Below are positions 152-46,377 of a DNA stretch of 64,000 nt, piece by piece (within the stretch, counting starts at the first letter, position 1; every line of letters begins with the position of its first letter). The notes under the pieces were generated by a model, which saw only the letters and a program-made list of their open reading frames with translations, ran no database searches and was not told the origin of the DNA. The DNA is from Chloroflexota bacterium (lineage in GTDB: Bacteria; Chloroflexota; Dehalococcoidia; JACQUA01). The DNA is taken from positions 1 through 64,000 of the forward strand of contig JACQUA010000173.1 in NCBI GenBank assembly GCA_016210565.1, given 5' to 3'. Both the position numbers and the translations under genes were made by a program.

Positions 152-367
152 GGGCGGCTATTTTCATCCTTCATGGTGCTGGGCCAACGAAGCACGAATG
201 ATTGCACCGAAATTAGAGCTTTGGCCACTGAACCGGGTACGGCGAAAGCTCTCGCAGGCCTTCTCCTCGCATATGGATTCCCCACAACCGTTCAGCCGTC
301 CCGATTCCTTCGGAACAGACTGATCGCCACTCAGAAACGTGGTGCCAAATATCGTCTCCATGTTCCA

Positions 368-397
368 TTGACAACTATAGCTAACATCGGGTATACT
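368..397 (+). promoter_or_regulatory. Sigma70-type promoter of the first fusion regulator
   Basis: TTGACA at 368-373 and TATACT at 392-397 are separated by 18 bases. The expected transcript start near 404 gives a leader of about 20 bases carrying the ribosome site AAGGAGG at 410-416. The second regulator copy has the same TTGACA-N18 arrangement at 26952-26981. Confidence 0.7.
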
Positions 398-422
398 GAG
401 GATGTCCCTAAGGAGGTGTTGT

Positions 423-1487
423 ATGTTCGTTAGAGTCAAAGACACTGGTAGATACCGCTATCTCCAACTTGTGAGAAATCATCGCGAGGGATCGAGGTCT
501 GTGCAGCGCGTGCTGTGTACCCTCGGGCGTCTGGAAGAGCTTCAAGAACAGGGGCGCATCGATGTCCTCGTACGTTCTTTGGCGCGCTTTCGCAAGCCAC
601 CTGAGCCAAGCGATCTGAACGGGCCGTGTCGTCCCAGGTCGGGCAGGGCGGGCAAATTGAAACCTGACTATTCATCCGGGACGATCCCCCAACCCACGGC
701 TAGGATTACGTCACCGCCGCTGCGTCCGGGACCTTCGACGATCACCGAACCAAGAGATCCTTCCGAGGCAAATGACCTGGAACCACTGACATTCTCGGAG
801 ATTCATAAAAGTGCGGAAGTTCTCGGAAAGTCTCCCATGTTCTCGGATTTGGATAAGGCGCACCTTTTGGAGCTTTCCCGGTTCGCTCGACAACGTCACC
901 TGAAGGCCCGTGAGTTCTTGTTCTTTGCCGGTGACACGTTGGAATGTTGCTACTTGATAGCTTCCGGGAGAATCAAACTATTGAAGCATTCCTTTTCTGG
1001 GAAAGACTTCATCACGGGAGCTTACGGCGCCGGGGAAATGTTGAGTACCACACTGCTTTTTACCGGCAAGACGCACCCCTCTTCCGCCCAGGCCATGATC
1101 GATAGTAAGGTGCTGGTAATAAAGAATGATAGCTTTGTCTCTTTTCTTCACAGGTTTCCTGAGTTGGGCATTGGAATCGTGGCGAAAATTCTAGATGCTG
1201 TTGGCGGACGGCACCAGGCTGCGACAGTGCAGCTCAGCGAACTCGCGGCCGAGAGGGCCGAGTACCGACTGGCTCGGGTGTTGTCTACACTTAGCCTGAA
1301 GTTCGGTTCTAGCATACCTTTCTCCCGACACGAAATTGGAGAAATGGCCGGAACGAGCACCGAGACGGCCGCGCGATTTGTTGCCCGATTGAGCCGGGGA
1401 GGCGTGGTCCGATCAACCCGCGGAAGGATAGTGGTTATGCACCCGAACAAGCTCCGGCTTCTGGCCGAAGCTCAATTGTCGGCATAG
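423..1487 (+). CDS. Crp/Fnr-family regulator with transposase-like N-terminal segment (copy 1)
   Basis: The 354-residue protein starts at ATG 423, 6 bases after AAGGAGG; an in-frame ATG at 402 lies upstream of that site and is less likely. Residues 1-57 (MFVRVKDTGRYRYLQLV, then REGSRSVQRVLCTLGRLEEL) resemble the extreme N-terminus of IS1634/IS4-type transposases, by my recall of that family. A low-complexity linker spans about 58-125. Residues 128-245 form a cyclic-nucleotide-binding-like beta barrel (FLFFAGD, CYLIASGRIKLL). Residues 298-342 are the Crp-type winged helix, with HEIGEMAGTSTETAARF. No N-terminal cysteine cluster of the FNR kind is present, so the ligand is unknown. It is probably a cytoplasmic transcription factor. 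A paralogue with the same architecture lies at 27005-28057. The regulator call is strong; the origin of the N-terminus is inferred. Confidence 0.85.
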   Translation: MFVRVKDTGRYRYLQLVRNHREGSRSVQRVLCTLGRLEELQEQGRIDVLVRSLARFRKPPEPSDLNGPCRPRSGRAGKLKPDYSSGTIPQPTARITSPPLRPGPSTITEPRDPSEANDLEPLTFSEIHKSAEVLGKSPMFSDLDKAHLLELSRFARQRHLKAREFLFFAGDTLECCYLIASGRIKLLKHSFSGKDFITGAYGAGEMLSTTLLFTGKTHPSSAQAMIDSKVLVIKNDSFVSFLHRFPELGIGIVAKILDAVGGRHQAATVQLSELAAERAEYRLARVLSTLSLKFGSSIPFSRHEIGEMAGTSTETAARFVARLSRGGVVRSTRGRIVVMHPNKLRLLAEAQLSA

Positions 1488-1920
1488 AGGCCAGTACCCC
1501 CCGGTTGCGCATTGGAGGACCTAGATTTTCATCACGTTGCCCAATCTTTGAAGATCCTATCCAGTTGATTGAGCTACATCACAGACGTAGGGCTTGTTGA
1601 GCGGCTAAACTAACGCTTGACCTTTGTTTGCAGGATGACCGCGCCGGGTCCCAGCAGAATGCGTCGGGCGAAGCATTCCGCCCCTCGAACCATGTGGCCG
1701 CGGCCTCACTGCAAACCGGCGCACGTGTCGCAGGACCTAGATGCGGCGGCACAAATGACCGGCTCCGCTTCTTGCTACGGGAGATTAGCCCAGTTGGCGG
1801 CCGGGGAGTCCTATCAGCAGGGGATTACCCATCGGACAAACTTGCAGAAAGACTAATCGGGAACGGGGGATAGCGCCTTAGAAGAACTCACAGTACCCCA
1901 GCTAGAAGGAGGATAGAAAG
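1488..1920. other. Intergenic region without a recognised gene
   Basis: These 433 bases hold only short open frames with no family resemblance, and their codon use differs from the neighbours. I see no clear promoter or repeat. A ribosome site, AGAAGGAGG, near 1905-1913 serves the next gene. Confidence 0.5.
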
Positions 1921-3081
1921 ATGCAGCCCATACTGGCTATGACGCTCGCGGTTGCCTTATTCGCTTCGGTTGCTGGAGCCTGTGCCGCTAGACAGGAGCA
2001 AACCCTGGAGGCAAGACCAGGTATCGGATCCGGTGTCACTGCCAGCGCTGATAAGAAGAGTTTGGCATCGGAATGGGAGACACTGGTGGAGGCAGCTAGA
2101 CGGGAGGGTACAGTTAACCTGTACGATTCGTGGAACCCGGAAGTCCATATTGCTTTGCGGAGCAAGTTTGCCGAGAAGTTCGGCATAGAACTGACATTTA
2201 CTTCGGTACCTAAGGGCCAGGAACTGGTCCCAAAACTGGAGAGAGAGCGGATGGCGGGTCTGTATCTGGCAGATGTCGTCGGGAGCGCTTCAACAGTCGT
2301 CCTTGTCCTGATGAAACCGAAAGGAATGCTGGATCCCATCGAACCTATGCTCGTCCTGCCGGAGGCGAAGGACGCCAGCATTCGTGTTGGCGGCAAACTT
2401 TTCCTGGACATGGAGCAAAAGCTTTATGTTCCGTTGAGCGCCCAACTTGACCCGTTGCTATCTCGCAACACCGGACTCGTAAGGGATGGTGAGATAAAAT
2501 CCTTTTCGGATCTCTTGGACCCCAAATGGCGAGGCAAGATTGCCATGAACGACCCAACCAGTGTCGGTTCGGGTCTCAGTTTTGTAAACCTGATCGTAGA
2601 CAAATGGGGCAGGGACAAGGCCACAGATTACTTTCGGCAGTTCGTCAAGCAGGAGCCCCTTGTAGGCCGGGATTTCCGTATCCTTGTCGAGTGGCTGGGG
2701 AGGGGTAAGGTTGCACTAGGCGTTGGGTTGCCAGTCCGCGAAGTGATGGCGTTCAAGGACATGGGAGCGCCGGTAGCCTTTGTGAAAGCCGCGGAAGGGG
2801 GGGTGGTCGGTAACGGTCCGGGCGGTATCGCCAGACCCGCCGGAAAACTGCCACATCCCAACGCGGCTAAGCTGTTCGTTAACTGGCTCCTCACCAAGGA
2901 GGGCTCGAGCTTGTTTAGCAAGGGGAATTCGCAGCCGAGCGCACGGTTGGACGTGTCCACCGAAGGGTTTGAAGACGTGGCTGCCCGAGCCGGAGACGTG
3001 TTCGAAGATGAGGACGCGGTAAACAGAAAGGCTCAACTGATCGATTTCGCCAGAGAAATCTTTGCACCGATTTTGCAATGA
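1921..3081 (+). CDS. Extracellular solute-binding lipoprotein (COG1840-like) 1
   Basis: This 386-residue protein has a hydrophobic N-terminal segment ending in a probable lipobox cysteine (C21, VAGAC), so it should be anchored outside the cytoplasmic membrane. The signal lacks the usual basic residues. The mature part starts with the family signature EWETLVEAARREGTVNLYDS and carries DLLDPKWRGKIAMNDP and HPNAAKLFVNWLLTKEG. These are typical of iron(III)-type and related periplasmic binding proteins of class II fold. Five such proteins occur in this island (others at 4744, 5993, 7318 and 16525), but no ABC permease or ATPase is visible, so the transport partner and the ligand are unknown. A ribosome site (AGAAGGAGG) precedes the ATG. 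Confidence 0.85.
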   Translation: MQPILAMTLAVALFASVAGACAARQEQTLEARPGIGSGVTASADKKSLASEWETLVEAARREGTVNLYDSWNPEVHIALRSKFAEKFGIELTFTSVPKGQELVPKLERERMAGLYLADVVGSASTVVLVLMKPKGMLDPIEPMLVLPEAKDASIRVGGKLFLDMEQKLYVPLSAQLDPLLSRNTGLVRDGEIKSFSDLLDPKWRGKIAMNDPTSVGSGLSFVNLIVDKWGRDKATDYFRQFVKQEPLVGRDFRILVEWLGRGKVALGVGLPVREVMAFKDMGAPVAFVKAAEGGVVGNGPGGIARPAGKLPHPNAAKLFVNWLLTKEGSSLFSKGNSQPSARLDVSTEGFEDVAARAGDVFEDEDAVNRKAQLIDFAREIFAPILQ

Positions 3082-3304
3082 CACGCTTGTCACGACCGAT
3101 GTCCCGAACCTTATCCTGCAGAACCGGAGCGAATAGTTCGATCGTGAAAGAGCAGAGAGTTATCCCGTCAACCGCGAGCCAGCATGCGTATCAGGGAGTG
3201 TCCATATGGTGCACTTGATCGGCCGGCGAGGGTGCGGGCACGTTCCTAAGTTAGCGCGCTACCCCAATCCACGCCCGTTCTGATGAATAACCGGACAGCA
3301 ACTA

Positions 3305-4684
3305 ATGAAAGCGTCTAGCAACCCTACGGCGAGCCAGCAACTGGCCGAGTTCGTAACAACGGCAAGGTTCGAAGATCTTCCTGAAGAGGTAGTGGGTAGA
3401 GCCAAGGAACTCATCATAGACCATCTTGGCGTCTCAATCTACGGTTCCACTACGCCGTGGGCTCGGATGATGGTCAACCTTGTTGCCAATGAAAGAGCGA
3501 TCGGGGGGAGCTCCATATATTTGAGCAAAGTCAAGACCGTTCCGCGCAATGCGGCCCTGGTCAACGGCACAACCGCGCACGGCTTTGAACTTGATGACGT
3601 GTTGCACCCCGTTCATTCGGGAGCTGTTGTCATCCCAGCGGCCCTGGCCATTGGCGAGCAGGAGCGCGCGAGCGGAAAGGAACTTATCGCAGCAATTGTG
3701 CTGGGGTATGAGGTGATGGCCAGAATTGCCTCCGCGGTTCACGATTCTAAATTCCATGCCCTCGGACGCCATGGCACCGGGGTTCTTGGCGCCTTCGGAG
3801 CGGCGACAGCAGCGGGAAGACTCCTCAATCTTGATTGCAGGACGTTGGTGAGCGCCATAGGGCTTGCCGCCAATCAGCACACCGGGCTAATGGAATTTTT
3901 CCGAGAAGGTACCATGGAAAAGAGATTCTTCGCAGGCAAGGCATCCCATGACGGTGTGCTGGCAGCCACGATGGCCGCTTCGGGCTTTAGCGCGGCCACC
4001 ACATCGCTGGACGGTGAATACGGATTTTGCCGCGTCTTCGACAGAGAAGCGAATTTGACGACCATCGCAGAGAACCTCGGCGAGACCTTCCGCCTGATGG
4101 AGACTGAGATAAAGCCGTATCCGTGCTGTCGAGTGATACACGCCTTGGTCGACGCCGCTCTACGAATTGCGGAGACATATGACCTTCCGCCGCAGGATAT
4201 CAGGGAAGTGCTAATCCATGGTAGTAAGGGTCACGCCAGCAGTCGCCACGCCTACTACGAGATTCCCGATGTCATGGCAGCTCAATTCAGCATCCCGTAT
4301 TGCGTGGCCAGAGCCCTCGTGTACCACAAACTCTGGGTCGATGACTTCACTCCCGGGGCAATAAAAGACCCGCAGACGCTGGCGCTGATGCCCGTGATCA
4401 AGGTCATACCTGATGCGGAAATGGAACGAAACAGAGAAATGGCTACCTGGTCATTTCGTTCGTTGAGCGTCAAACTAGCCGACGGCAAGGTTATCGAAGA
4501 AACGGGACGCGAGGCGCGTGGATCCCCGGGGAGCACGCTCTTTACCGATGACCTTTACCGCAAATTTGGAAAGCTGGGTCTCATGGTGCTGCCCGGCGAG
4601 AAGGTCGACAACATCATGGGTCTCGTCCATAGCCTGCCTCAGATGGGAGACGTAGCTGAGCTGGCGAACGCGATGAGTTCTTGA
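3305..4684 (+). CDS. MmgE/PrpD family protein 1
   Basis: The 459-residue protein belongs to the 2-methylcitrate dehydratase / cis-aconitate decarboxylase fold. Signature stretches are NGTTAHGFELDDV, LGYEVMARIA, ASHDGVLAA, IKPYPCCRVIHALVDAAL and QFSIPYCVARALV. The length is normal for the family and no signal peptide is seen, so it should be cytoplasmic. Known members dehydrate or decarboxylate tricarboxylic acids, but most paralogues are uncharacterised and the substrate cannot be read from sequence. It sits between solute-binding protein genes, suggesting breakdown of an imported organic acid. The ribosome site is weak. Three more family members lie at 19888, 30166 and 31920. Confidence 0.88.
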   Translation: MKASSNPTASQQLAEFVTTARFEDLPEEVVGRAKELIIDHLGVSIYGSTTPWARMMVNLVANERAIGGSSIYLSKVKTVPRNAALVNGTTAHGFELDDVLHPVHSGAVVIPAALAIGEQERASGKELIAAIVLGYEVMARIASAVHDSKFHALGRHGTGVLGAFGAATAAGRLLNLDCRTLVSAIGLAANQHTGLMEFFREGTMEKRFFAGKASHDGVLAATMAASGFSAATTSLDGEYGFCRVFDREANLTTIAENLGETFRLMETEIKPYPCCRVIHALVDAALRIAETYDLPPQDIREVLIHGSKGHASSRHAYYEIPDVMAAQFSIPYCVARALVYHKLWVDDFTPGAIKDPQTLALMPVIKVIPDAEMERNREMATWSFRSLSVKLADGKVIEETGREARGSPGSTLFTDDLYRKFGKLGLMVLPGEKVDNIMGLVHSLPQMGDVAELANAMSS

Positions 4685-4743
4685 AAGTAGCTCTTGCGCG
4701 CTCAGGCATTGCATCACATATGTATCTGTATTGGAGGGAACCA

Positions 4744-5919
4744 ATGAAAAGGGGCATGACGGCAACAATCAGTCTTTTCCTTATCCTGTCGTTCACGCCG
4801 CTTGCTTGCGGCGGCAGCCCCCCACCGACCGGGCAGCCGCCAACGGCCGCAACGCCAACCGACTCGACAGCGGCAGGCAAACCCGCTTGGGAGCGAGACT
4901 GGGAGCAAACGCTCACCACTGCCAGAAAAGAAGGCTCGGTCACCATGTATACGACACAAGGAGCGGAGTTTCGAAACGCCTTGAACGAAGCCATGACCAA
5001 GAAGTATTCCATAGCCGTGGAATCGTTGACGGGGCGGTCGGATGAAATTGGGGAACGCATATTGAGGGAACAGAGGACCAGACTCAATAATGCGGATGTG
5101 CTGATCGCCATCTCAACCACCAATTTCGAAATGTATCAGCGCGAGGGCTTGCTTCAGCCCTTAGAAAAGACGCTCATCTTACCCGAGGTGCTGGATCTCA
5201 AGGCCTGGTACCGGGGCCAGTTTACGTGGCTCGACGTCGGACCGGGCGAAAAGACCACGCTGGCATTCCGCGAGAGTGTCAATCCGCCAATACTGATCAA
5301 TACAAGTCTGGTTAAGGCCGGAGAGTTGAAATCCTGGAACGATCTCTTGGACCGGAAATGGAAAGGTAAGATACTTATGACCGATCCGACCGTCGGCGGC
5401 GCCGGTCAGAAGACGATGACGACCCTTGCCTACGGCATAATGAACTGGGATTTCATCAAGGCGTTGTTGCAACAAGAACCAACCGTACTGAGAAATGATC
5501 GTCTGGCAACAGAGTGGATAGCCCAGGGAAAATTCCCTATTCTCATCGGTCCCATGAAAGGGATGGTGTTCCAATTCACGCAAGCGGGCGCTCCTATAGA
5601 ATACTTCACTCCTTCAGAGGGTACATACACGTCCCTCGGGGCCGGAACCATTGCCCTGGTCAAAGGCAACCCGCACCCCAATGCGGCTAAAATACTCCTT
5701 AACTACCTTCTCACGAAGGAAGGACAAACCATCACAGCAGAAACCACAGGTTATCAGAGCCTCAGGCTAGACGTCCCATCGGACAAAATTGATCCGGATA
5801 CAGTCCGGCAACCGGGGGCGAAATATTTTTCCCCGGACACCGACAAAGGTTTTCGAGAAAATCAGGACGACCTCGGAAGACAGGTGGTGAAGATTTTCCA
5901 GGATTACATGAAGAAATGA
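4744..5919 (+). CDS. Extracellular solute-binding lipoprotein 2
   Basis: The start at ATG 4744 is chosen because GGAGG at 4733-4737 lies just upstream; an earlier in-frame start at 4681 would add a non-signal-like tail. The 391-residue protein has a signal segment ending LSFTPLACGG, a probable lipoprotein cysteine, then a proline-rich linker. The binding domain follows, with WERDWEQTLTTARKEGSVTM, DLLDRKWKGKILMTDPT and HPNAAKILLNYLLTKEGQT. It is most like the next gene at 5993, and the two look like a tandem duplication. Its ligand is unknown and no transporter partner is present. Confidence 0.85.
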   Translation: MKRGMTATISLFLILSFTPLACGGSPPPTGQPPTAATPTDSTAAGKPAWERDWEQTLTTARKEGSVTMYTTQGAEFRNALNEAMTKKYSIAVESLTGRSDEIGERILREQRTRLNNADVLIAISTTNFEMYQREGLLQPLEKTLILPEVLDLKAWYRGQFTWLDVGPGEKTTLAFRESVNPPILINTSLVKAGELKSWNDLLDRKWKGKILMTDPTVGGAGQKTMTTLAYGIMNWDFIKALLQQEPTVLRNDRLATEWIAQGKFPILIGPMKGMVFQFTQAGAPIEYFTPSEGTYTSLGAGTIALVKGNPHPNAAKILLNYLLTKEGQTITAETTGYQSLRLDVPSDKIDPDTVRQPGAKYFSPDTDKGFRENQDDLGRQVVKIFQDYMKK

Positions 5920-5992
5920 GACCCCGCGCGACAAGTTGCAAGACATCTTGAAAACCTGCCGGCGTTACGTTCTCTAGTTCAGGAGGGATCAA

Positions 5993-7168
5993 ATGCGGAA
6001 CTCCATCAACGTGGCGATCGTAGGTCTCCTGTTGTTCGCCGTTTCGTTGCAGGGTTGCGGTAGCCAGCCGGAACTGACCCGGACGCCCGCCGCCGGACCG
6101 AAAGAGGGCACACCCGCGTTGTCAACGAAGCCAGCCTGGGAAAAGGAGTGGGAAGACACGCTCGGCGCAGCCAGAAAGGAAGGCGAGGTCACCGTCTACA
6201 CTACTTACGGACCTGCATGGCGCGTAGCTATGAGCGAGCTCATGTCAAAAGAATACGGTATTGTCTTCAATGTGCTATACGGAAGGTCTGACGAGCTGAT
6301 GGAACGCATATGGCGGGAGCAGCGCAACAAGCTATACCAAGTAGACGCCGTTCAAGCCATCAGCAGCAAGCGCTATATTGCCGAAGGGGAGCAACTGGCA
6401 ACAATCTTGCAACCCCTGGAACAGATGCTCGTCCTGCCCGAAGTCCTTGATCCCAAAGCCTGGGTAGTCGGTAAGATCCCCTGGGCCGACCCGGTGACCA
6501 AGAACATGTTGTTCTGGCGTGACGCCCTGGCCGTACCCCTGATGGTCAATACCGATATGGTCGGCCCTCAAGAGATCAAAGTCTGGGACGACCTTTTGAA
6601 TCCAAAGTGGAAAGGAAAGATAATCTTGAGCGACCCGACCATCGGGGGGAATGCAAACTCGGTTATGACGATGCTGGCCTGGAGCATAAAGGGTTGGGAT
6701 TTCGTGAATCGCTTGCTTCAACAAGAGCCTATTGTGTTAAGGGACTATCGCTTGATGGCAGAATGGGTAGCCAGGGCGAAGTACCCGATCATGATAGGTC
6801 CGCGGCAGGAAGAGGTGCAGGAATTCATTGGTCTCGGGGCCCCAGTCAAATACGTTAACTTTCAAGACGGCATCATAACAACCTATGGCGCTGGGACCAT
6901 AGCTGTGGTGAAGGGGAGCCCGCATCCGGCTGCCGCAAAAATCTTTCTCAATTTTCTCCTTAGCAAGGAGGGACAAACTCTTACTGCCAAACTCGGCGGT
7001 TATCCAAGCGCCAGGGTCGACGTACCCAACGCGGACTTTCTCGATCCCGCCACGCTACGGCAACCTGGGATGAAAGCTTTTTCTAGTGAGGATGTGGAGT
7101 ATATGCGGAACCTGGATCAAACAAACCAGAAACTCAAACAACTCCTGGCTCCCCTCATGAAATCCTAG
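5993..7168 (+). CDS. Extracellular solute-binding lipoprotein 3
   Basis: The 391-residue protein has a clear lipoprotein signal (LLLFAVSLQGC), a short spacer and the COG1840-like binding domain. Markers include WEKEWEDTLGAARKEGEVTV, DDLLNPKWKGKIILSDPTIG and HPAAAKIFLNFLLSKEGQT. The ribosome site is a clear AGGAGG a few bases before ATG. It closely parallels the protein encoded at 4744 in length and in spacing of motifs, so the pair probably arose by duplication. It is expected on the outer face of the membrane; the ligand is unknown. Confidence 0.86.
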   Translation: MRNSINVAIVGLLLFAVSLQGCGSQPELTRTPAAGPKEGTPALSTKPAWEKEWEDTLGAARKEGEVTVYTTYGPAWRVAMSELMSKEYGIVFNVLYGRSDELMERIWREQRNKLYQVDAVQAISSKRYIAEGEQLATILQPLEQMLVLPEVLDPKAWVVGKIPWADPVTKNMLFWRDALAVPLMVNTDMVGPQEIKVWDDLLNPKWKGKIILSDPTIGGNANSVMTMLAWSIKGWDFVNRLLQQEPIVLRDYRLMAEWVARAKYPIMIGPRQEEVQEFIGLGAPVKYVNFQDGIITTYGAGTIAVVKGSPHPAAAKIFLNFLLSKEGQTLTAKLGGYPSARVDVPNADFLDPATLRQPGMKAFSSEDVEYMRNLDQTNQKLKQLLAPLMKS

Positions 7169-7317
7169 AGGAAGCATCGTTTGGCAAATGAGTGGCCCCG
7201 CTGGGTGATAAGCTGAATGAAAGGAATGCGAGGTGAGGATAACGCGGTGAGGGGAGCTTCCGGACCAGGGTCTTCCAGCAAAAGGAAGCAGTAATCCGAG
7301 ACAGGAAGAAAAGCAAT

Positions 7318-8499
7318 ATGAAAAGTTTCTGGCGGCTAATAGCAGTTTCGATACTCGCGAGCTTGCTTCCGCTGGCGTGTAAACAACCTCAGGAGCCTGC
7401 CCCCACGCCGGGCGAAGTAAGAACTCCGGCCGGGGCACTGTCTACGTCTCCACCCAGGGCCGACCGGGCGCAAGACTGGGAAAGAACGGTGGCAGAAGCC
7501 AAGAAAGAGGGCAGAGTGACAATCTACAATATCCTGGGCCAAGAGCCAAGGATTGCAATTTCCCAGGCGTTCATGGCCAAATTTGGCATTGAAGCGGAAT
7601 TCGCGTCCTTCAGCAGGGCGGTAGAAGTTATGGCCAAAGTACAGGCGGAAAACAGAGCGGGATTGTTCTTAGCCGACCTTTTCTTTGTTGGTACGTCCAC
7701 CAACATAGCCAGCATGAAACCGGCAGGACTTCTTGGTGCCATGGAACCACTCCTAATGCTTCCCGAGGTGACAGACCCGCGGACCTGGACGGGTGGGAAA
7801 TTTCCCTTTGTAGATAAAGATAAGCAGGTGATCGCAATAAGTGCTGTTACAAGACGAAATATCGTTCACAATACTGACTTCATCAAGAAGGGCGAAATAA
7901 CTAGCTACAAGGACATGCTGAAACCCCAGTATAAGGGAAGAATCTCGCTCAATGATCCCACGATAAGTGGCTCTGGAGCAGCTTTTCTGGCTTTCTTAGC
8001 ATTGCGTGTCTGGAATCTTGACGAGGCAAGCGAGTTTCTAACACGATTAGTAAGGCAGCAAGAGGCGGTTATCCAGAGGGACCAACGCCAACAAGTGGAA
8101 TGGATTGCCCGGGGGAGATTGGCTATCGGCCTGGCGCCACACCCCGAAACCTTAGTTGAATTTGTTGGGGCTGGGGCACCCCTGAACGTGGCCACAATGA
8201 AAGAAGGCACTTATGGCATAGCTGGGACCGGGGCCTTTTCTGTACCCGACAAATTTGCTCACCCCAACGCTGCAAAAGTCTTTGTGAACTGGCTGCTTAC
8301 TAGGGAAGGACAAACCGTCTTTGCCCGGAGTTACGGCAGTCCGAGCATGCGCATCGATGTATCTGCAGAGGGAATTGACCCCATGTTTCTACAACAACCC
8401 GAAGAAAAGGTTTTCTTTGATGATGAAGAGATGATCCTTTTTCGGGCCAGGGTGCAGGACATTGCCAAGGAGATTATTGACAATGCTATGAGGAGGTAA
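7318..8499 (+). CDS. Extracellular solute-binding lipoprotein 4
   Basis: The 393-residue protein has a signal segment ending LLPLACK and a mature binding domain with AQDWERTVAEAKKEGRVTIY, DMLKPQYKGRISLNDPTISG and HPNAAKVFVNWLLTREGQT. The C-terminus ends with a segment beginning FFDDEEMILFRARVQDIAK, which is shared with the protein at 16525 but not with the other three. So 7318 and 16525 form a second subfamily. It is followed by an SDR gene 75 bases downstream. The mirror-image pair at 15738-17706 repeats this SBP-plus-SDR association on the other side of the CapA array. Confidence 0.86.
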   Translation: MKSFWRLIAVSILASLLPLACKQPQEPAPTPGEVRTPAGALSTSPPRADRAQDWERTVAEAKKEGRVTIYNILGQEPRIAISQAFMAKFGIEAEFASFSRAVEVMAKVQAENRAGLFLADLFFVGTSTNIASMKPAGLLGAMEPLLMLPEVTDPRTWTGGKFPFVDKDKQVIAISAVTRRNIVHNTDFIKKGEITSYKDMLKPQYKGRISLNDPTISGSGAAFLAFLALRVWNLDEASEFLTRLVRQQEAVIQRDQRQQVEWIARGRLAIGLAPHPETLVEFVGAGAPLNVATMKEGTYGIAGTGAFSVPDKFAHPNAAKVFVNWLLTREGQTVFARSYGSPSMRIDVSAEGIDPMFLQQPEEKVFFDDEEMILFRARVQDIAKEIIDNAMRR

Positions 8500-8574
8500 G
8501 GTTTTCGCACCTTTTTTAGACATCAACAGAGCCAAGAACTCGAACAAGCTTACGAGCTAATAAAAGGAGCTAGA

Positions 8575-9306
8575 ATGGAAAGGGCGGTCATTGTGACAGG
8601 AGCGGCAGGGTGGCTAGGTGGAGCTATCGCCAGGGCTTTCGGAAAGGCGGGGGATAAGGTGATGCTGAGCGACATTAATACGGCGCCCCTGGGAGAATTG
8701 GCCGCTGCTGTAAACAAGGGGCCGGGGCAAGCCCTTACCTGCGGTGCAGATACAAGGAATTACGACGAAGTAAAAGCACTGGTGGAGGAAACAATAAAAA
8801 GGTGGCAGAGAGTAGACGTCATGGCGTGCGTGGCCGGGGCAGGGCTTACACGACTCTCGGGGAGGCAACACAAGCTCCTTATTGAATGCACCGATGAAGA
8901 GTGGGACCTGGTAGTTGACTCAAACTTGAAGGGAACATTTCACAGCATCAAGGCGGTGGCAGAGCCGATGATGCGACAAAAAGACGGCCACATAATCATC
9001 ATGGGCTCGGGCACAGGCTCCAGAGGCAATAAAAGGCGTTCTGCCTACGCCTCAGCCAAAGCAGGCGTCTACGGCCTCATGAAATGCGCTGCCCTGGAAC
9101 TGGGCGGCCATAATATAAGAGTAAACGTGGTTAACCCCGGTCGGAATCTCCGACCGGGAGAAGCGATTGAGACAGAAATCGTAGAACAGAACATTCTGAA
9201 AAGAACAAATGATCCCGCCGAAGTGGCGGCTTTCTATGTGCATCTCTCTGGAATGCACAATGTCTCGGGGCAGATTTTTAACCTGGATAGTCGTATCCTG
9301 TTCTGA
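8575..9306 (+). CDS. Short-chain dehydrogenase/reductase (SDR) 1
   Basis: The 243-residue protein carries the Rossmann glycine motif TGAAGWLG near residues 8-15. The catalytic serine region is in GSGTGSRGN, followed by the Tyr-x3-Lys pair in SAYASAKAGVYGLMK. This is a classical NAD(P)-dependent oxidoreductase of cytoplasmic type. The usual NAG motif is replaced by VAGAG. AAAAGGAGC precedes ATG 8575. It is a paralogue of the SDR at 15738; the two flank the five CapA-like genes. The substrate is not predictable; oxidation or reduction of an alcohol or ketone in a catabolic pathway is the reasonable guess. Confidence 0.88.
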   Translation: MERAVIVTGAAGWLGGAIARAFGKAGDKVMLSDINTAPLGELAAAVNKGPGQALTCGADTRNYDEVKALVEETIKRWQRVDVMACVAGAGLTRLSGRQHKLLIECTDEEWDLVVDSNLKGTFHSIKAVAEPMMRQKDGHIIIMGSGTGSRGNKRRSAYASAKAGVYGLMKCAALELGGHNIRVNVVNPGRNLRPGEAIETEIVEQNILKRTNDPAEVAAFYVHLSGMHNVSGQIFNLDSRILF

Positions 9307-9531: not shown

Positions 9532-10695
9532 ATGGACAGTAAATCTTTGCCAAATGAGACAATCATATTTCACGCCGTGGGCGATGTGGGTCCCAGGCGC
9601 ATCGAGTACGGGGAAACCCCCGAGTCCCTCTTCGCTATGGTGCATCAGAAAGTGAAAGAGGCGGACATATCTTTCTGTCAACTGGAAAGAAATTTCTCGA
9701 CCCGGGGCTGCTTTCAATACCGGAACCATCCGACCTGGTACGCCCGGGTTCATCCCGACAATGTCAAGTCTCTGGTCTTCGCCGGCTTCAACGTTGTCTC
9801 CAACGCCAGCAACCACTGCTTCGAGTACGGCCCCGAGGCCTTGCTAGAAAGCATCGATGTTCTGCGAGGCAACAACATTCAGGTCATCGGGGTCGGCAAG
9901 GACATCGCCGAAGCCAGGAAACCGGCCATCGTCGAGCGCAAGGGAATCAAGGTTGGCTTCCTGGCCTACAACGCCATACTCGCCACCGAGATCGAGGCCC
10001 GCGAAGACAAACCGGGATGCACTCCCATCCATGTGGACACCTACTATCAGTCCCAGGACTTCGCCCCGGGAATGCCGCCCAGGATAGTGACCATCCCGTT
10101 GGAAGGAGATGTGCGGGCAATGGAAGAGGATATTCGTAAATTGCGGAACCAGGTAGATGTGGTAGTCGTTTCCATGCACTGGGGAATATATTTCATACCT
10201 GGGGCAATAGCCATGTATCAACCAACCGTGGGACACCGGGCGATTGATGCGGGGGCGGATCTCATTGTGGGGCATCATGACCACATAATCAAGGGCATAG
10301 AGATATTCAGAGGAAGGGTGATCTTCTACGGACTGGGCAACTTTGCGGAAGAGACGCCATTTCAGGTAAAAGCACCGTCAGGAGTGCATGCTGGACGTCC
10401 TACCTACAAATATCGAAAATGGCAACCAGAACCGGGGTGGGAGCGATACAACGCGCCTGTCGATTGGCGTTACTCCATGATGGTCAGGTGCGTTATCACG
10501 AAGAAGGGGATTCAAAGAGTGTCATTCTTGCCAACGTGGATCAACGGGCGGGCGGAGCCTGAAGTACTGTCTGGAAAAGACCCCAGATTTCAGGAGGTTC
10601 TGAACTACGTTGAGCCGTGGTGCCGCGAACTGGGCACGGCTCTCCGGATAGAAGGGGATGAGGTGATTGTTTGGAAATCCCAGGAGCCGACTTAA
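9532..10695 (+). CDS. CapA-like metallophosphatase family protein, copy 1
   Basis: The 387-residue protein belongs to the CapA/PgsA group (PF09587), which has a calcineurin-like metallophosphatase fold. Metal-site-like motifs are HAVGDVGPRR, SNASNHCFEYG, VVSMHWGIYF, VGHHDHIIKGIE and FYGLGNF. Unlike classical CapA of poly-gamma-glutamate synthesis it has no N-terminal membrane anchor, so it should be cytoplasmic and probably does something else. It is the first of five tandem paralogues. Bases 9574-9689 are identical to 10774-10889 of the next copy, which points to gene conversion. Its real substrate is unknown. The ribosome site is weak (GAAGAAAA). Confidence 0.85.
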   Translation: MDSKSLPNETIIFHAVGDVGPRRIEYGETPESLFAMVHQKVKEADISFCQLERNFSTRGCFQYRNHPTWYARVHPDNVKSLVFAGFNVVSNASNHCFEYGPEALLESIDVLRGNNIQVIGVGKDIAEARKPAIVERKGIKVGFLAYNAILATEIEAREDKPGCTPIHVDTYYQSQDFAPGMPPRIVTIPLEGDVRAMEEDIRKLRNQVDVVVVSMHWGIYFIPGAIAMYQPTVGHRAIDAGADLIVGHHDHIIKGIEIFRGRVIFYGLGNFAEETPFQVKAPSGVHAGRPTYKYRKWQPEPGWERYNAPVDWRYSMMVRCVITKKGIQRVSFLPTWINGRAEPEVLSGKDPRFQEVLNYVEPWCRELGTALRIEGDEVIVWKSQEPT

Positions 10696-10731
10696 GCACC
10701 ATATCCTGATACACACTCCAAAAGGGAGACT

Positions 10732-11883
10732 ATGGATAACGAAGCAGCAGCAAAGGAAACAATTGTGCTCTGTGCCGTGGGCGATGTGGGTCCCAGGCGC
10801 ATCGAGTACGGGGAAACCCCCGAGTCCCTCTTCGCTATGGTGCATCAGAAAGTGAAAGAGGCGGACATATCTTTCTGTCAACTGGAAAGGAATTTTTCAA
10901 CTGCGGGTCATTTTCAATACAGAAATCATCCGACGTGGTACGCCCGGGTCCATCCGGACAATGTCAAATCACTGGTCTTTGGAGGGTTCAATGTAGTCTC
11001 CAATGCCAGCAATCACTGCTTTGATTATGGCCCCGAGGCGTTGCTGGAGAGTATCGACGTTCTACGGAAGAACAACATCCAGGTCATCGGCGTAGGTAAG
11101 GACATCGCCGAAGCCAGGAAACCGGCAATCATCGAGCGGAAGGGAATCAAGGTTGGATTCCTCGCCTATAACTCAATACTGGCCATGGAAATTGAGGCGC
11201 GTGAAGATAAGCCCGGATGCAGTCCTGTTCGCATTTCAACGTTCTACGAGGCGCAGGACTTTGCCCCGGGAACGCCCCCCAGGATAATCAGTTTTCCGCG
11301 CGAAGAGGACGTGATTGGCATGGAAGATGACATCCGTAAGCTGCGAAATCAAGCAGACGTGGTGATTGTTTCCATGCACTGGGGGATGTATTTCATGCGC
11401 GGCGCCTTAGCCATGTACCAGCCGATCGTCGGCCACCGGGCTATCGACGCCGGGGCGGACCTTGTCGTGGGGCATCATGACCACATAATCAAGGGCATAG
11501 AGGTATACAAGGGGCGGGCCATTTTCTACGGCCTGGGCAATTTTGCCGAGGAGACGCCAAACCACTTGAAGCCGCCGCCGGGAGCGTTTTCCAGGATCAG
11601 CATAGGAAAGTATCGCAAAGTGCACCAGGAGAAGGGATGGGAACGGTACGGCGGCCTGGTCGATAAACGATACTCCATGGTCGCCAGGTGCCTCGTCGGC
11701 AAAAAAGGGATTCAAAAGGTATCGTTCCTGCCCACGTGGATCAATCAACGCGCCGAGCCTGAGATACTCTCCCGCAAGGACCCGAGATTTCAGGAAGTGC
11801 TGGATTACGTCGAGCCGCAGTGCACAGACCTGGGAACGGCTCTTGAGCTTGAAGGGGATCAGGTGGTTGTTCGGAATTCGTAG
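10732..11883 (+). CDS. CapA-like metallophosphatase family protein, copy 2
   Basis: The 383-residue protein has the same motif set as copy 1: CAVGDVGPRR, SNASNHCFDYG, VSMHWGMYF, VGHHDHIIKG and FYGLGNF. It begins 36 bases after copy 1 with AAAGGGAG before the ATG, so the genes are likely cotranscribed. Its first 40 or so codons contain the 116-base block identical to copy 1, while the rest has diverged, mostly at third codon positions. No signal peptide or transmembrane segment is seen. Function is inferred only at family level (putative metal-dependent hydrolase). Confidence 0.85.
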   Translation: MDNEAAAKETIVLCAVGDVGPRRIEYGETPESLFAMVHQKVKEADISFCQLERNFSTAGHFQYRNHPTWYARVHPDNVKSLVFGGFNVVSNASNHCFDYGPEALLESIDVLRKNNIQVIGVGKDIAEARKPAIIERKGIKVGFLAYNSILAMEIEAREDKPGCSPVRISTFYEAQDFAPGTPPRIISFPREEDVIGMEDDIRKLRNQADVVIVSMHWGMYFMRGALAMYQPIVGHRAIDAGADLVVGHHDHIIKGIEVYKGRAIFYGLGNFAEETPNHLKPPPGAFSRISIGKYRKVHQEKGWERYGGLVDKRYSMVARCLVGKKGIQKVSFLPTWINQRAEPEILSRKDPRFQEVLDYVEPQCTDLGTALELEGDQVVVRNS

Positions 11884-11976
11884 AATCCACTCAATCGAGA
11901 ACGCCAATTTCTCACCTGCGGGTTGTCCAGACTGAGGACAACAAGACTATCATGCGGACCGTTTCGAGGAGAATAA

Positions 11977-13080
11977 ATGACTCAGCACAAGGTATCCTTA
12001 TATGCGGTAGGAGATGTTGCTGTCAGCCGTGAAGATCCTGAATCGATCTTCGCCCTGGCGGCGCCGACCCTCAAAGAGGCCGATATCCGCTTCGGACAAA
12101 TTGAAAATATCCTGTCCGAAAGGGGTATTCTTCAAGTTCACGTGTCCAGCCGGGCTGCTCACCCGAAGAATGTCGCTGCGCTCACCTACGCGGGATTCGA
12201 CGTCATGTCGGCGGCCAGCAACCATACCCTGGACTGGGGCTATGACGGCCTTTTTGACACCGTGGACCTTTTGAGAAACAATGGCATCACGGTGATTGGC
12301 GTGGGAAAGAATTCCGAAGAAGCCCGCCAACCGGCCATTGTTGAGCGCAAGGGTACCAGGGTGGCGTTTCTCGACTACTGCAGCGTCTTGCCCAAAGGCT
12401 ATGAAGCCACACCGGACAAACCTGGCGCATCGGCGATAAGAGTCTCCACAGCCTACGAGCAAATGGACTGGCAACCCGGAACGCCTCCCAGAGTCCTGTC
12501 TTTCGCCAACAAGCAAGACCTGGAAGCCATGGTGAACGACATCAAGAAGGTGAGGAGTCAGTCGGATATCGTAGTAATGTCAATTCACTGGGGCATCCAC
12601 TATGTCCCCTCTTTATTAGCCATGTACCAGAGGGAAGTCGCCTATGCCGCCATCGACGCCGGCGTCGACCTCATCCTGGGGCATCATGCCCACATTCTGA
12701 AAGGGATTGAGGTCTACAAGGGCAAGGTCATCTTTTACAGCCTCTGCAACTTTGCCTTCGACCTCGGCCCCATTGAAAGAATTCGGAAATTGATCTACTG
12801 GCAAGTCTACCGGTGGGAACTGGATCCGGACTATTCCGCCTATCCCTTCCCTCCGGATTCCAGAAAGACCACCATCGCCAAATGCATCATGTCCGACAGG
12901 AAAATCGAGAGGGTCTCTTTCTTACCCGTGATGATCAACAAGCGGGCGCAGCCCGAGGTTCTGGTACGTTCCGACCCCCGCAGCGACCAGGTCTTTGACT
13001 ACGTGGCGTGGCTCTGCAAGGACCAGCATCTGGATACCAGGTTCCGTAGGGAAGGTGACGAGGTAATCATCGGGGTTTGA
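11977..13080 (+). CDS. CapA-like metallophosphatase family protein, divergent copy 3
   Basis: The 367-residue protein is the most divergent of the five. It keeps YAVGDVAVSRED, ASNHTLDWG, MSIHWGIHY, LGHHAHILKGIEVYKG and FYSLCNFAFD, so the putative metal-binding residues remain. It lacks the PRR-x-EYG stretch that follows the first motif in the others and has a shorter N-terminus. ATG 11977 is preceded by CGAGGAG. Divergence in the middle of an otherwise homogeneous array suggests a distinct substrate or an older duplicate. Cytoplasmic; function unknown beyond the family. Confidence 0.83.
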   Translation: MTQHKVSLYAVGDVAVSREDPESIFALAAPTLKEADIRFGQIENILSERGILQVHVSSRAAHPKNVAALTYAGFDVMSAASNHTLDWGYDGLFDTVDLLRNNGITVIGVGKNSEEARQPAIVERKGTRVAFLDYCSVLPKGYEATPDKPGASAIRVSTAYEQMDWQPGTPPRVLSFANKQDLEAMVNDIKKVRSQSDIVVMSIHWGIHYVPSLLAMYQREVAYAAIDAGVDLILGHHAHILKGIEVYKGKVIFYSLCNFAFDLGPIERIRKLIYWQVYRWELDPDYSAYPFPPDSRKTTIAKCIMSDRKIERVSFLPVMINKRAQPEVLVRSDPRSDQVFDYVAWLCKDQHLDTRFRREGDEVIIGV

Positions 13081-13121
13081 ACCGATGGGAAACCCGGTTA
13101 AATTTTGAACGAAAAGTGGAC

Positions 13122-14276
13122 ATGAACAACCAATCCGCACCAGGCAATACCATCCTGTTTCACGCCGTGGGAGACGTCGGCCCCAGGCGAGTGGAATACG
13201 GCGAAGACCCCGAATCCCTTTTCGCCATGACGCACGAAAAGATCAAGGAAGCAGACATATCTTTTTGCCAGCTCGAGAAGAACCTTTCCACCAGGGGTTG
13301 CCTCCAGTGGGCCGATCGGGTTACGTGGTACGGACGTATCAGTCCGGAAAATGTCAAATCGCTGGTCTATGCCGGCTTCGACGTTATCTCTCACGCCAGC
13401 AATCATTGTTTTGATTATGGCCCGGAGTCGCTCCTTGAAACTATCGACGTCTTGCGCCACAACGATATCCAGGTCATCGGAGTGGGAAAAGATATCGCCG
13501 AAGCCAGAAAGCCGGCTATTGTTGAGCGGAAAGGGATCAAGGTTGGATTCCTGGCTTACTGCTCCGTGCTCCCTCCAGAAATCGAAGCCCGCGAAGAGAA
13601 ACCGGGATGTTGTCCCATCCGCGTTTCCACCTACTACGAGGCCCAGGATTTTGCCCCGGCCATGCCGCCGGTGGTGATCACCGTTCCCCGCCAGGAAGAT
13701 GTTCTGGACATGGAAGAAGATATTCGCAGTTTGCGAAAGCAGGTGGACATCGTGGTCGTTTCTATGCACTGGGGGATACATTTCGTCCCCGGGGCCCTCG
13801 CGATGTACCAGCCGGTCGTTGGCCACCGGGCGATCGATGCCGGCGCCGACCTCATTCTGGGCCATCATGACCACATCCTCAAGGGCATAGAAATATACAA
13901 AGGGCGGGCTATCTTCTACGGCCTGGGCAACTTTGCCGAAGAGACCCCCCAGCACGTTAAGCCTCCGCCTGGCGTGTACACCAAGCGCCTTTCGAATATG
14001 CACCGAAAATGGAAACTGGAGCCCGGGTGGGAGCGCTATGACGGCCCCACGGACAAACGGTACTCAATGATGGTCAGATGCGTGTTCGGGAGAAAGGGTA
14101 TTCAGGAAGTCTCCTTCTTGCCGGCGTGGATCAATCAGCGCGCTGAGGCCGAGATATTGTCCGGAAAAGACCCCAGGTTCCAACAGGTGCTGCAATACAT
14201 CCAGCCATGGTGCGACGAACGTGGCACTGCGTTGCACGTGAGGGGGCATAAGGTAGTTGTGCACTGTCAGGCTTGA
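13122..14276 (+). CDS. CapA-like metallophosphatase family protein, copy 4
   Basis: The start at ATG 13122 is chosen because MNNQSAPGNTILFHAVGDVG lines up with the N-termini of copies 1, 2 and 5. A TTG at 13077 overlapping the previous stop is an alternative. The 384-residue product carries the full motif set (HASNHCFDYG, VSMHWGIHFV, LGHHDHILKG, FYGLGNF). It follows copy 3 with a gap of 41 bases. The ribosome site is poor in sequence, so translation may be coupled to the upstream gene. Confidence 0.83.
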   Translation: MNNQSAPGNTILFHAVGDVGPRRVEYGEDPESLFAMTHEKIKEADISFCQLEKNLSTRGCLQWADRVTWYGRISPENVKSLVYAGFDVISHASNHCFDYGPESLLETIDVLRHNDIQVIGVGKDIAEARKPAIVERKGIKVGFLAYCSVLPPEIEAREEKPGCCPIRVSTYYEAQDFAPAMPPVVITVPRQEDVLDMEEDIRSLRKQVDIVVVSMHWGIHFVPGALAMYQPVVGHRAIDAGADLILGHHDHILKGIEIYKGRAIFYGLGNFAEETPQHVKPPPGVYTKRLSNMHRKWKLEPGWERYDGPTDKRYSMMVRCVFGRKGIQEVSFLPAWINQRAEAEILSGKDPRFQQVLQYIQPWCDERGTALHVRGHKVVVHCQA

Positions 14277-14438
14277 ACGGTATTGTGCGTGCCGCGGGCA
14301 GGGCGTAGCCCATGGCTTTAGCCTTGCGGGTTGGGGGGAGGTCAAGCGACCAGGTAGGTCATCCCACAAATGGGATTCGGGGACAAAAGCTCGGGGTCTC
14401 CGTCAGGCCTCGATCATTGATAAGAGAAAGGGACAGCA

Positions 14439-15599
14439 TTGAATACTAAAGCTACGCCAGATAGTTCGATCGTGCTTCATGCCGTGGGCGATGTGGGTCC
14501 GAGGCGGATCGAGTACGGGGAAACGCCTGAGTCCCTCTTCGCGATGGTGCATCAGAAAGTTAAGGAAGCGGATATATCTTTCTGCCAACTGGAAAGGAAT
14601 TTCTCCACCCGAGGTTGCTTTCAATTCCGAAACCATCCAACGTGGTATGCTCGAGTTCACCCCGACAACGTCAAATCGCTGGTATTCGCCGGCTTCAATG
14701 TTGTCTCCAATGCCAGCAATCACTGCTTTGAATACGGCCCCGAAGCGCTACTTGAAAGTATTGACATTCTCCGGAGCAACAACATCCAGGTCATCGGGGT
14801 GGGCAAAGACATCGCTGAAGCCAGGAAACCGGCCGTTTTGGAGCGAAAAGGGATCAAGGTTGGATTCCTGGCCTATAACGCCATACTCGCCGCCGAGATC
14901 GAGGCCCGTGAAGACAAACCGGGATGCACTCCTATCCATGTGGACACCTACTATCAGTCCCAGGACTTCGCCCCGGGGATGCCGCCCAGGATAGTGACCA
15001 TTCCGCTGGAAGAAGATGTTCGAGCCATGGAAGAGGACATCCGTAGGCTGCGGGACCGTGTGGACGCGCTGGTTGTGTCCATGCATTGGGGGATGTACTT
15101 CATACGCGGGGCCATAGCCATGTATCAACCAGCCGTCGGATACCGGGCAATTGATGCCGGGGCCGACCTCGTGGTAGGCCACCATGACCACATAATCAAG
15201 GGCATAGAGATATACAAAGAGCGTGCGATCTTTTACGGCCTAGGAAACTTCGCCGAAGAAGTCCCACATCACGTCAAAGCTCCTGCCGGCGTGCATTCCG
15301 CACGCACCTCACATAAGTACCAGAAGTGGCAGATGGAGCCCGGATGGGAGCGCTATAACTTCCCCGGCGATTACCGGTATTCTGTGATGGCCAGATGCGA
15401 GATCACCAGGGAGGGGATTCAACGGGTATCGTTCTTGCCGACGTGGATCAACCAGCGCGCCGAGCCCGAAATATTGTCCAGAAAAGACCCGCGGTTCCAG
15501 GAAGTACTGGAATACGTTCAGACCTGGAGCAAAGAGCTGGGGACCACCCTTACTCCGGAGGGAGACCAGGTGGTGGTCTACGATTCAAATACGAACTAA
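14439..15599 (+). CDS. CapA-like metallophosphatase family protein, copy 5
   Basis: The start is TTG 14439, preceded by GAAAGGGA at 14426-14433, and the N-terminus then aligns with the other copies. The 386-residue protein contains HAVGDVGPRR, SNASNHCFEYG, VSMHWGMYFI, VGHHDHIIKG and FYGLGNFAEE. A segment around 14945-14990 is identical over more than 40 bases with copy 1 (around 10027-10070), although the two genes differ elsewhere. This is a further sign of recombination within the array. The family assignment is sound; the biochemical role is not known. Confidence 0.84.
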   Translation: MNTKATPDSSIVLHAVGDVGPRRIEYGETPESLFAMVHQKVKEADISFCQLERNFSTRGCFQFRNHPTWYARVHPDNVKSLVFAGFNVVSNASNHCFEYGPEALLESIDILRSNNIQVIGVGKDIAEARKPAVLERKGIKVGFLAYNAILAAEIEAREDKPGCTPIHVDTYYQSQDFAPGMPPRIVTIPLEEDVRAMEEDIRRLRDRVDALVVSMHWGMYFIRGAIAMYQPAVGYRAIDAGADLVVGHHDHIIKGIEIYKERAIFYGLGNFAEEVPHHVKAPAGVHSARTSHKYQKWQMEPGWERYNFPGDYRYSVMARCEITREGIQRVSFLPTWINQRAEPEILSRKDPRFQEVLEYVQTWSKELGTTLTPEGDQVVVYDSNTN

Positions 15600-26808: not shown

Positions 26809-26951
26809 GCTTGAAGCACCCGGTAGCGGCACGCCGCCAGGCCGCGGCCGGCTTTGGCGGTCGTCACGCGACCGGTCCCGACGGGGTGGGGTGGGGGAAT
26901 CTTGAATCCTGGAATCCTTCTTGAAGTGCCAACACCGCTGGTGATTTCACA

Positions 26952-26981: not shown

Positions 26982-27004
26982 TGCGGTGTCCAGAAAGGCT
27001 AATC

Positions 27005-28057
27005 ATGTTCGTGAGAGTGAAGGGCGCCCGCAAATACCGGTACCTGCAACTGGTGGAAAATCGCCGCGAGGGAGACCGGACGGTGCAGCGTGTTCTCTGT
27101 ACCCTGGGCAGGGTGGAAGACCTCGAAACCCGCGGCGGCATCGATGTTCTTCTCCGGTCGCTCGGGCGGTTCGGCAGGTTGGTCACAGTGTGCACCCACA
27201 GCGGGGCGCAATGCCCGAAAGCAGAGGACCCGGAGTTGCCCGGACCGGACGCCAGGCCCGCGTCCGGTGGGCTGACGGCGTCCACCGGCGTCCTGCCGGT
27301 TTCCCCCCACATCGACGCCGCCCGGGCCAGACATATACCGTGGAGCTCCGGAAGTGTTTCCCCTTCGAATCGCGAAAAAGCCGTCGATATCCTCAGGAAG
27401 TCCTTCATCTTCTCGGGTCTAGACCAGAAACACCTGATCGAACTGTCCCGGCTGGTTGTTGAACGGGAGCTCAAGGCCGGCCAGTTCCTGTTTTTCGAAG
27501 GCCAACCGGTGGGATTCTGTCATCTGGTAGCCTCGGGGGTAATGAAGCTCGTCAAGCATTCGGCCTCGGGCGTAGATTTCATAATAGACGTATACGGCCG
27601 GGGTGAGATGATGGGCATCACGCTTCTGTTTGCCGCCGGCAAGCCACACACGGTGTCCGCCCAGGCGGTGCTCGACGCCCGCGTACTGTCTATCTCCAGC
27701 AGCGGCCTCATCCGCTTTCTCCACCGCTACCCGGCGTTCAGCACTGATATCCTGGGGAAGATGCTCACCCTTTCCGGCCAACGGTACCAGGCTGATACCT
27801 CACGGCTCACAGACGTTCCCGGGGAGAGGACCGAGTACCGCCTGGCCCGCGTCCTCTGGGTCCTGTGCCGGAGGCTGGGACCCGGGATTCCTCTAACACG
27901 CCGCGAGATCGCCGAGATGACAGGGACCACCATCGAGACGACATCCCGGTTCATAAGCCGGTTGAAGCGGGATGGAATCGTGCGCGCGCTTCGCGGCAAG
28001 GTAGTGATCGTGGACCACGACAAGCTTGGACAACTGGCAGGGACGGGCGGGGGTTAG
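27005..28057 (+). CDS. Crp/Fnr-family regulator with transposase-like N-terminal segment (copy 2)
   Basis: The 350-residue protein starts at ATG 27005 (AAAGG six bases before). Residues 1-57 (MFVRVKGARKYRYLQLV, then REGDRTVQRVLCTLGRVEDL) match copy 1 and resemble the N-terminus of IS1634-type transposases. A variable linker occupies 58-125. A cyclic-nucleotide-binding-like barrel covers about 127-240 (FLFFEGQP, CHLVASGVMKLVKH), and a Crp-type winged helix is at 298-342 with REIAEMTGTTIETTSRF. There is no FNR-type cysteine set near the N-terminus. A TTGAT-N4-ATCAT site 36 bases downstream of its stop could be a Crp/Fnr-type binding site for it or for a relative. Confidence 0.85.
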   Translation: MFVRVKGARKYRYLQLVENRREGDRTVQRVLCTLGRVEDLETRGGIDVLLRSLGRFGRLVTVCTHSGAQCPKAEDPELPGPDARPASGGLTASTGVLPVSPHIDAARARHIPWSSGSVSPSNREKAVDILRKSFIFSGLDQKHLIELSRLVVERELKAGQFLFFEGQPVGFCHLVASGVMKLVKHSASGVDFIIDVYGRGEMMGITLLFAAGKPHTVSAQAVLDARVLSISSSGLIRFLHRYPAFSTDILGKMLTLSGQRYQADTSRLTDVPGERTEYRLARVLWVLCRRLGPGIPLTRREIAEMTGTTIETTSRFISRLKRDGIVRALRGKVVIVDHDKLGQLAGTGGG

Positions 28058-28092: not shown

Positions 28093-28106
28093 TTGATGCA
28101 AATCAT
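28093..28106 (+). promoter_or_regulatory. Candidate Crp/Fnr-type operator
   Basis: TTGAT at 28093-28097, GCAA, then ATCAT at 28102-28106 matches the FNR consensus half sites at 9 of 10 positions. A weak promoter-like pair follows (TTGCAG 28106-28111, TAAACT 28129-28134). If real, the site is centred about 41 bases before the transcript start, the class II activation position. The next gene, at 28366, would then have a leader of about 225 bases. Confidence 0.4.
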
Positions 28107-28365
28107 TGCAGTCCCCTTCCGGACGGACTAAACTCCTTCTGCCCGACAACAAGGGACGTGCATGGAGATGCGCCGGCAAATGCCCGGAAGCAAGACTCCT
28201 GTCGATTGCTCCCGCCTACCCGAGTCGGTCCACCGCGGCCTGGAACCACCGGGGGGGACGGTGAATGTTGGCCTGAAGCCGCTCCCTTGCCTTCAATCCC
28301 CGGCCACAAGGGGGAAAGGACATCTATTCCGCGGGCCGTTTTGGTCCAGGGTCAAGAGCTGAATA

Positions 28366-45049: not shown

Positions 45050-45081
45050 GGATTAGTCTCCTCGTCCGTAAGCTCCGGTGC

Positions 45082-45100
45082 CACAGGCGTCCCGCCTGTG
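45082..45100. repeat. cacaggcg hairpin repeat
   Basis: CACAGGCG and CGCCTGTG flank 3 bases. Its place between arsC and acr3 means that it lies inside the arsenic operon, where it could modulate the acr3 transcript level. It belongs to the family at 130-151. Confidence 0.55.
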
Positions 45101-45108
45101 AGCGGTTG

Positions 45109-45495: not shown

Positions 45496-45506
45496 CTCTG
45501 CTCCTG

Positions 45507-45773
45507 CTATGTCCTCCTGAACCTTTCTTCCTTATCCAGGGCATTTACGACGAAAGTGGTCACTTCCGCCTTATTCGGGACTCTGCCCGAGCAGACCAGT
45601 TCTTCGTTGATGACAATGCCGGGTGTAGCCAGGAGCGGGTAACTCATTATCTTCTTTATGTCCCTGACTTCTTCGATGCGAGCCTCTACCGCCAGATCTG
45701 TGATCACCTCTCTGATCGTCTGTTCTACCTGGCGGCAACGGGAACAACCCGGTCCCAAAACTTTGATATCCAT
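45507..45773 (-). CDS. Thioredoxin-like small redox protein
   Basis: The 88-residue protein has the active-site motif GCSRC (C10 and C13) and the cis-proline region LLATPGIVIN. This is the pattern of 'redox-active disulfide protein 2', a glutaredoxin-sized thioredoxin-fold family often found with arsenic or metal genes. AAGGAGC precedes ATG 45773. It probably recycles ArsC or serves the upstream permease. Confidence 0.88.
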   Translation of the reverse strand: MDIKVLGPGCSRCRQVEQTIREVITDLAVEARIEEVRDIKKIMSYPLLATPGIVINEELVCSGRVPNKAEVTTFVVNALDKEERFRRT

Positions 45774-46368: not shown

Positions 46369-46377
46369 TGGCGTCTC

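Follow-up and report, generated by a model that had tools for sequence, protein, structure and literature searches.

A Crp/Fnr regulator encoded in a genome of the class Dehalococcoidia (Chloroflexota) begins with the N-terminal domain of an IS1634 transposase, and it is likely to be a two-headed local regulator, in which the transposase head would act at the promoter of its own gene and the Crp body at that of the neighbouring catabolic operon. The head is assigned to the own promoter because candidate sites bracket that promoter, and the body to the operon because a candidate operator is centred at about −41.5. As far as can be judged from sequence, the head, the promoter, and the sites would all come from the left end of an IS1634 element, with binding predicted for both parts. 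The window analysed is the whole stretch of 64,000 nucleotides, in which two genes of this kind occur with the following features.

341–350, plus strand: GGTGCCAAAT, candidate site 1 of the transposase head, ahead of the own promoter (19.2 bits with a matrix made from IS sites only; 0 of 300 shuffles as high)
368–397, plus strand: own promoter of regulator copy 1, −35 TTGACA at 368–373 and −10 TATACT at 392–397 (read directly; alignment with seven sister genes and with the left ends of IS1634 elements)
401–406, plus strand: candidate site 2, GATGTC (GGTGTC in most sister genes), between the −10 hexamer and the ribosome site (position fixed in genes with this head; weak here, 3.4 bits)
423–1487, plus strand: Crp/Fnr regulator, copy 1, intact open reading frame of 354 aa
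423–593, plus strand: transposase head, the IS1634 transposase N-terminal domain, residues 1–57 (63–70% identity to IS1634 transposases)
594–800, plus strand: low-complexity linker rich in Pro, Gly, and Arg (linkers of the paralogs cannot be aligned with each other)
801–1487, plus strand: Crp/Fnr body, a cNMP-binding-like sensor domain and a Crp-type HTH, including the stop codon
1569–1582, plus strand: candidate FNR-like operator TTGAGCTACATCAC before the downstream operon
1606–1611, plus strand: −10 hexamer TAAACT of the downstream operon
1921–9306, plus strand: putative controlled operon with solute-binding proteins, an MmgE/PrpD-like protein, and an SDR (ORF reading, names given by eye)
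26925–26934, plus strand: second copy, site 1 (AGTGCCAACA)
26985–26990, plus strand: second copy, site 2 (GGTGTC)
27005–28057, plus strand: second transposase-headed Crp/Fnr regulator, 48% identical
28093–28106, plus strand: candidate FNR-like operator TTGATGCAAATCAT belonging to the second copy, with −10 TAAACT at 28129–28134

Translation of copy 1 likely starts at the ATG at 423, behind the ribosome site AGGAGG at 411–416, since the other in-frame ATG, at 402, lies just five bases past the −10 hexamer. The Crp/Fnr part is complete and fills the C-terminal two thirds of the protein (residues ~155–345), with cNMP_binding (PF00027) scoring 59 bits at a cut-off of 27.5 and HTH_Crp_2 (PF13545) scoring 42.9 bits at a cut-off of 27. 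Inspection of this body by eye revealed no N-terminal Cys cluster, and SSA stands in place of the cAMP-site RSA. In the Pfam and NCBIfam profile scan, no DDE domain was matched in copy 1, where the Crp domains come after the linker, nor did HTH_3 match its N-terminus, unlike those of other, sister paralogs. The IS terminal repeat CCGAAGTTCTACAGT, taken from the intact element L065 and sought with up to three substitutions, was not found in the window or in the scanned loci with transposase heads. An earlier note, made from the sequence alone, had described this gene as copy 1, with 57 IS1634-like residues joined by a low-complexity linker to a complete Crp/Fnr protein and with neither a catalytic core nor inverted terminal repeats, and all these points have been borne out. 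Its proposal that the mobile-element domain was captured as a new input or DNA-binding module stands in its DNA-binding part, for which homology, the interchange with HTH heads, and co-captured sites argue, with binding itself predicted; the input part found no support.

Residues 1–56 of the head are 63% identical to the N-terminus of the intact 522-residue IS1634 transposase L065 from another Chloroflexota MAG, which is recognised by NF033559 (374 bits, cut-off 100) and by Pfam DDE_Tnp_1; identity to other IS1634 copies reaches 68–70%. Among 84,980 species genomes, the head alignment matched six loci, all of them IS1634 transposase ORFs or truncated ends. In viral contigs, no relative of the head, of the transposase, or of the fusion was found. 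The check suggested in the earlier note, a profile search with the isolated N-terminal domain, returned no IS1634 match and nothing meaningful in Pfam and NCBIfam, as NF033559 does not match the transposase before residue 27. AlphaFold2 predicts a three-stranded sheet followed by two helices for the head (b-b-b-a-a; mean pLDDT 82.6). A search with this fold gave no significant match, the best Z of 3.6 being shared with unrelated folds; the arm-type integrase DNA-binding domains 3jtz, 3rmp, and 3ju0 were among the top rows, at non-significant Z and tied with unrelated folds. A full-length structure prediction from six sequences was poor (pLDDT 48.7) and was set aside. A head tree based on 60 columns does not tell single from repeated capture (p-AU 0.376). 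Capture of the IS1634 transposase N-terminus as a module predicted to bind DNA is well supported.

In IS1634 elements, the transposase promoter is bracketed by two sites, e.g., ATGTGGTGCCAAATA and ATGTGGTGTCTAATT in L062, and L065 bears a third copy (GTGGTGCCAAA) at its right end, within the terminal repeat. The own promoters of the eight transposase-headed genes of the genome are likewise bracketed by two GGTGYCAAA-type sites, which are absent upstream of the other 15 paralogs. A weight matrix made solely from the sites of IS1634 elements and then run on the upstream regions of all 23 regulators separates the eight genes from the remaining 15 (p=2e-6). Their summed site score is 140.5 against −1.2 for shuffled sequences (SD 12.8, i.e., 11 SD above), the two position windows of this test having been set after the sites had been seen; the best single site gives a shuffle p below 0.05 in six genes and of about 0.06 in the other two. 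The spacing between the two sites is 58–62 bp in six of the eight genes and 60–70 in the IS. Pairwise identity is 71% within site 1 compared with 23–31% in the flanking blocks, which are no more alike than chance, in a comparison whose site positions were picked knowing the matrix matches, so that the summed-score shuffle test is the fairer one. In L006, site 2 was not recognisable, and the degenerate two-site pattern is not specific genome-wide (34 matches versus 27 for the control). It is thus supported, by likeness to the element, that the transposon's own binding-site-like sequences came along in the capture. The head would bind the two sites around the regulator's own promoter and, given their bracketing position and the analogy with transposase autorepression, would most likely autoregulate its gene.

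For the Xre heads, a corresponding upstream site emerged only partially and post hoc. The two genes with diverged IS1634-like heads, L052 and L054, have an exact TAGTGTAAATCA in common, which stands at −67 relative to the start codon and precedes the −35 hexamer by 28 bp; this is only suggestive, as a 12-mer common to both members was likewise found in an unrelated pair. Xre heads with Arg at position two of the recognition helix have GTAACA/TGTTAC upstream (5/5 versus 0/7 for the rest, a post hoc comparison; L044, L045, L047, L048, and L051), and k-mer enrichment upstream of Xre-headed genes was not significant.

TGA-N6-TCA occurs in 19 of the 23 spacers between a regulator and its operon, against a mean of 1.46 and a maximum of 5 in shuffled spacers, with the counted matches in L041 and L049 differing from the consensus one. 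A TANNNT −10 hexamer follows at an offset of 37–39 in 18 of 19 curated operators, a set to which the variant site of L049 and a site of L042 overlapping the stop codon were added by eye. This fixed offset places the operator centre near −41.5, where CRP and FNR sit as class II activators. No clear downstream operator was seen for L050, L005, and L007. Genome-wide, the extended operator has 26 matches compared with 3 for the reversed control. This FNR-like box (TTGA-N6-TCA), lying at about −41.5 of the neighbouring catabolic operon, would be bound by the Crp/Fnr body, which, judging from the position, would most likely serve as a class II activator. The genes downstream of the paralogs, named by eye, encode mostly solute-binding proteins, MmgE/PrpD, FAD-dependent reductases, CoA enzymes, and CapA-like proteins, and these adjacent food-utilisation genes are probably under the control of the Crp/Fnr body.

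Several further observations concern the surroundings of these genes. Orphan TTGA-N6-TCATNGAC sites adjoining none of the examined paralogs were noted at L110, L115, L116/L117, and L131/L132, two of them identical and on opposite strands in contig C401; they are possible further members of the regulon. In the window, five consecutive CapA-like ORFs (HAVGDVGPRRIEYGE...) occupy 9532–15599, and similar ORFs lie beside L043, L045, and L049. An arsenic-resistance-like cluster (ACR3-like permease, ArsC-like protein, second permease, and ArsR-like protein) was read by eye at 43985–48067.

The 23 Crp/Fnr paralogs analysed in the host genome each consist of an N-terminal head, a linker rich in Pro, Gly, and Arg, and the Crp body, the N-terminal extension amounting to roughly 85–150 aa. 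Eight heads are of the IS1634 type, two are diverged IS1634-like (33–35% identity), twelve are Xre-type HTH, and one is a winged helix. Profiles matched among the scanned heads were HTH_3/HTH_31, HTH_34 (winged helix), and an IS630-type HTH; HTH_3 was over the cut-off in most Xre-type heads scanned and just under it in L042, while the Xre heads of L045, L046, L047, L048, L051, and L055 were recognised by eye, outside the profile scan. At L049 (G000:C29), positions 3548–4735 counted on the reverse strand hold a second, damaged Crp copy next to the Xre-headed one, with an N-terminus of the IS630-transposase HTH type and the frame lost before the C-terminal HTH.

A tree built on the Crp part unites the 23 paralogs in one clade (100/100), on which the transposase head requires 7 changes (7–8 in bootstrap replicates) against a mean of 7.6 when heads are shuffled. 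Several groups mixing transposase and Xre heads are strongly supported, e.g., L006 (transposase) with L053 (Xre) at 99/83 within a mostly Xre group. The heads are scattered across the Crp tree and have, therefore, been exchanged repeatedly among the paralogs. What moved among the ~23 paralogs may have been cassettes of head plus promoter, with heads of the Xre, winged-helix, and other HTH types circulating as well. That the promoter, its operator sites, and the cognate head (one kind domesticated from an IS) were swapped as a unit between Crp/Fnr bodies, rewiring self-regulation while the body HTH and its operator stayed constant, has about an even chance of being right. The homology, the swapping of heads, the conserved sites with their spacing, and the operator position come directly out of the computations; we infer physical binding, the direction of regulation, exchange as one cassette, and the effector.

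The survey of genomes for the fusion, also suggested in the earlier note, confirmed it in eight genes here and found it nowhere else: with the best five candidates per genome scored, a fused head–Crp protein was absent from 392 other genomes of the class and from a 400-genome sample of the phylum. Among the same best five candidates, relatives match from about residue 77 onward, mostly from about 130, and most are headless proteins of ~230 aa. The family appears to be a lineage-specific modular Crp/Fnr radiation with swapped heads, one of them captured from an IS together with its sites. A partial check of the literature, mostly outside subscription journals, did not find such fusions reported.

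The head might be a passive relic left by an inserted IS from which the gene gained a promoter and a start codon, with every function resting on the Crp part. IS-supplied promoters are common, and the regulator promoter region does resemble the IS left end in the alignment of the eight genes with IS1634 left ends; the upstream sites could also have been inherited as promoter sequence without being bound by the head. Against the relic stand the coding sequences: across the paralogs, head dN is 0.17–0.37 while dS, often saturated, is at least 1.16, and the heads are kept by purifying selection. The eight heads also average 79% column identity, whereas the alignment of the 23-protein family averages 39%; moreover, the two upstream sites are conserved islands, and HTH heads sit in the same place. 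On balance, a relic is unlikely. It is likewise improbable that the head serves in protein interaction or oligomerisation instead of binding DNA, a reading favoured by a literature search that gave no direct DNA-binding evidence for the IS1634 N-terminus and opposed by the exchange of this head with HTH heads and by its association with a specific upstream DNA motif common to the transposon.

Joint binding of the head and the Crp HTH at the target operon, each head type creating a different composite operator, would explain why the Crp recognition-helix positions are nearly invariant across the paralogs, target discrimination having then to come from elsewhere. We regard it as rather unlikely: head sites were located at the promoter of the regulator gene itself, and the intergenic regions downstream show no enrichment for them (p=0.51), which suggests different targets for the two heads; in addition, the downstream operator is alike for transposase- and Xre-headed paralogs. 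An assembly chimera or contamination, to which the fragmented assembly (419 contigs, 6.4% estimated contamination) might point, is extremely improbable, and misassembly, named in the earlier note as a possible refutation, is ruled out by the eight divergent, in-frame, stop-free copies spread over seven contigs with a common regulatory architecture. The two-headed local regulator is, therefore, the reading we retain.

Transposase DNA-binding domains are known from animals as raw material for transcription factors; if our reading is true, bacteria provide a case as well, one that has spread through a single gene family and in which the binding sites were captured together with the domain. It would also offer a direct route to what the poorly characterised IS1634 N-terminus binds and show how the exchange of self-regulatory heads can rewire a family of paralogous regulators that retains a common target operator.

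Like other Crp/Fnr regulators, the proteins described here have a cNMP-binding-like domain, a Crp HTH, and an FNR-like box at the class II position near −41.5, but they carry an extra N-terminal head of DNA-binding type, of several origins, and number ~23 in one genome, where a putative catabolic operon adjoins most of them. The transposase-headed members agree with the IS1634 transposase (NF033559) in their first 57 residues and in the flanking promoter, which has two subterminal-type sites, whereas the catalytic DDE domain and terminal repeats are missing and the domain is fused to a regulator. In vertebrate transcription factors that arose by transposase capture (host–transposase fusions), a transposase DNA-binding domain is joined to a host regulatory domain; the present case differs in being bacterial, in having spread inside one paralog family, and in that the cis sites would travel with the head at its own promoter. 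In SAR202 and Dehalococcoidia studies, lineage-specific paralog expansions are tied to organic matter breakdown and concern catabolic enzymes (PMC5395668, PMC10444878), whereas here it is the regulators that have expanded. What is new is that the eight transposase-headed genes keep the transposon's promoter-bracketing sites and that an FNR-like operator lies between most regulators and the downstream operon.
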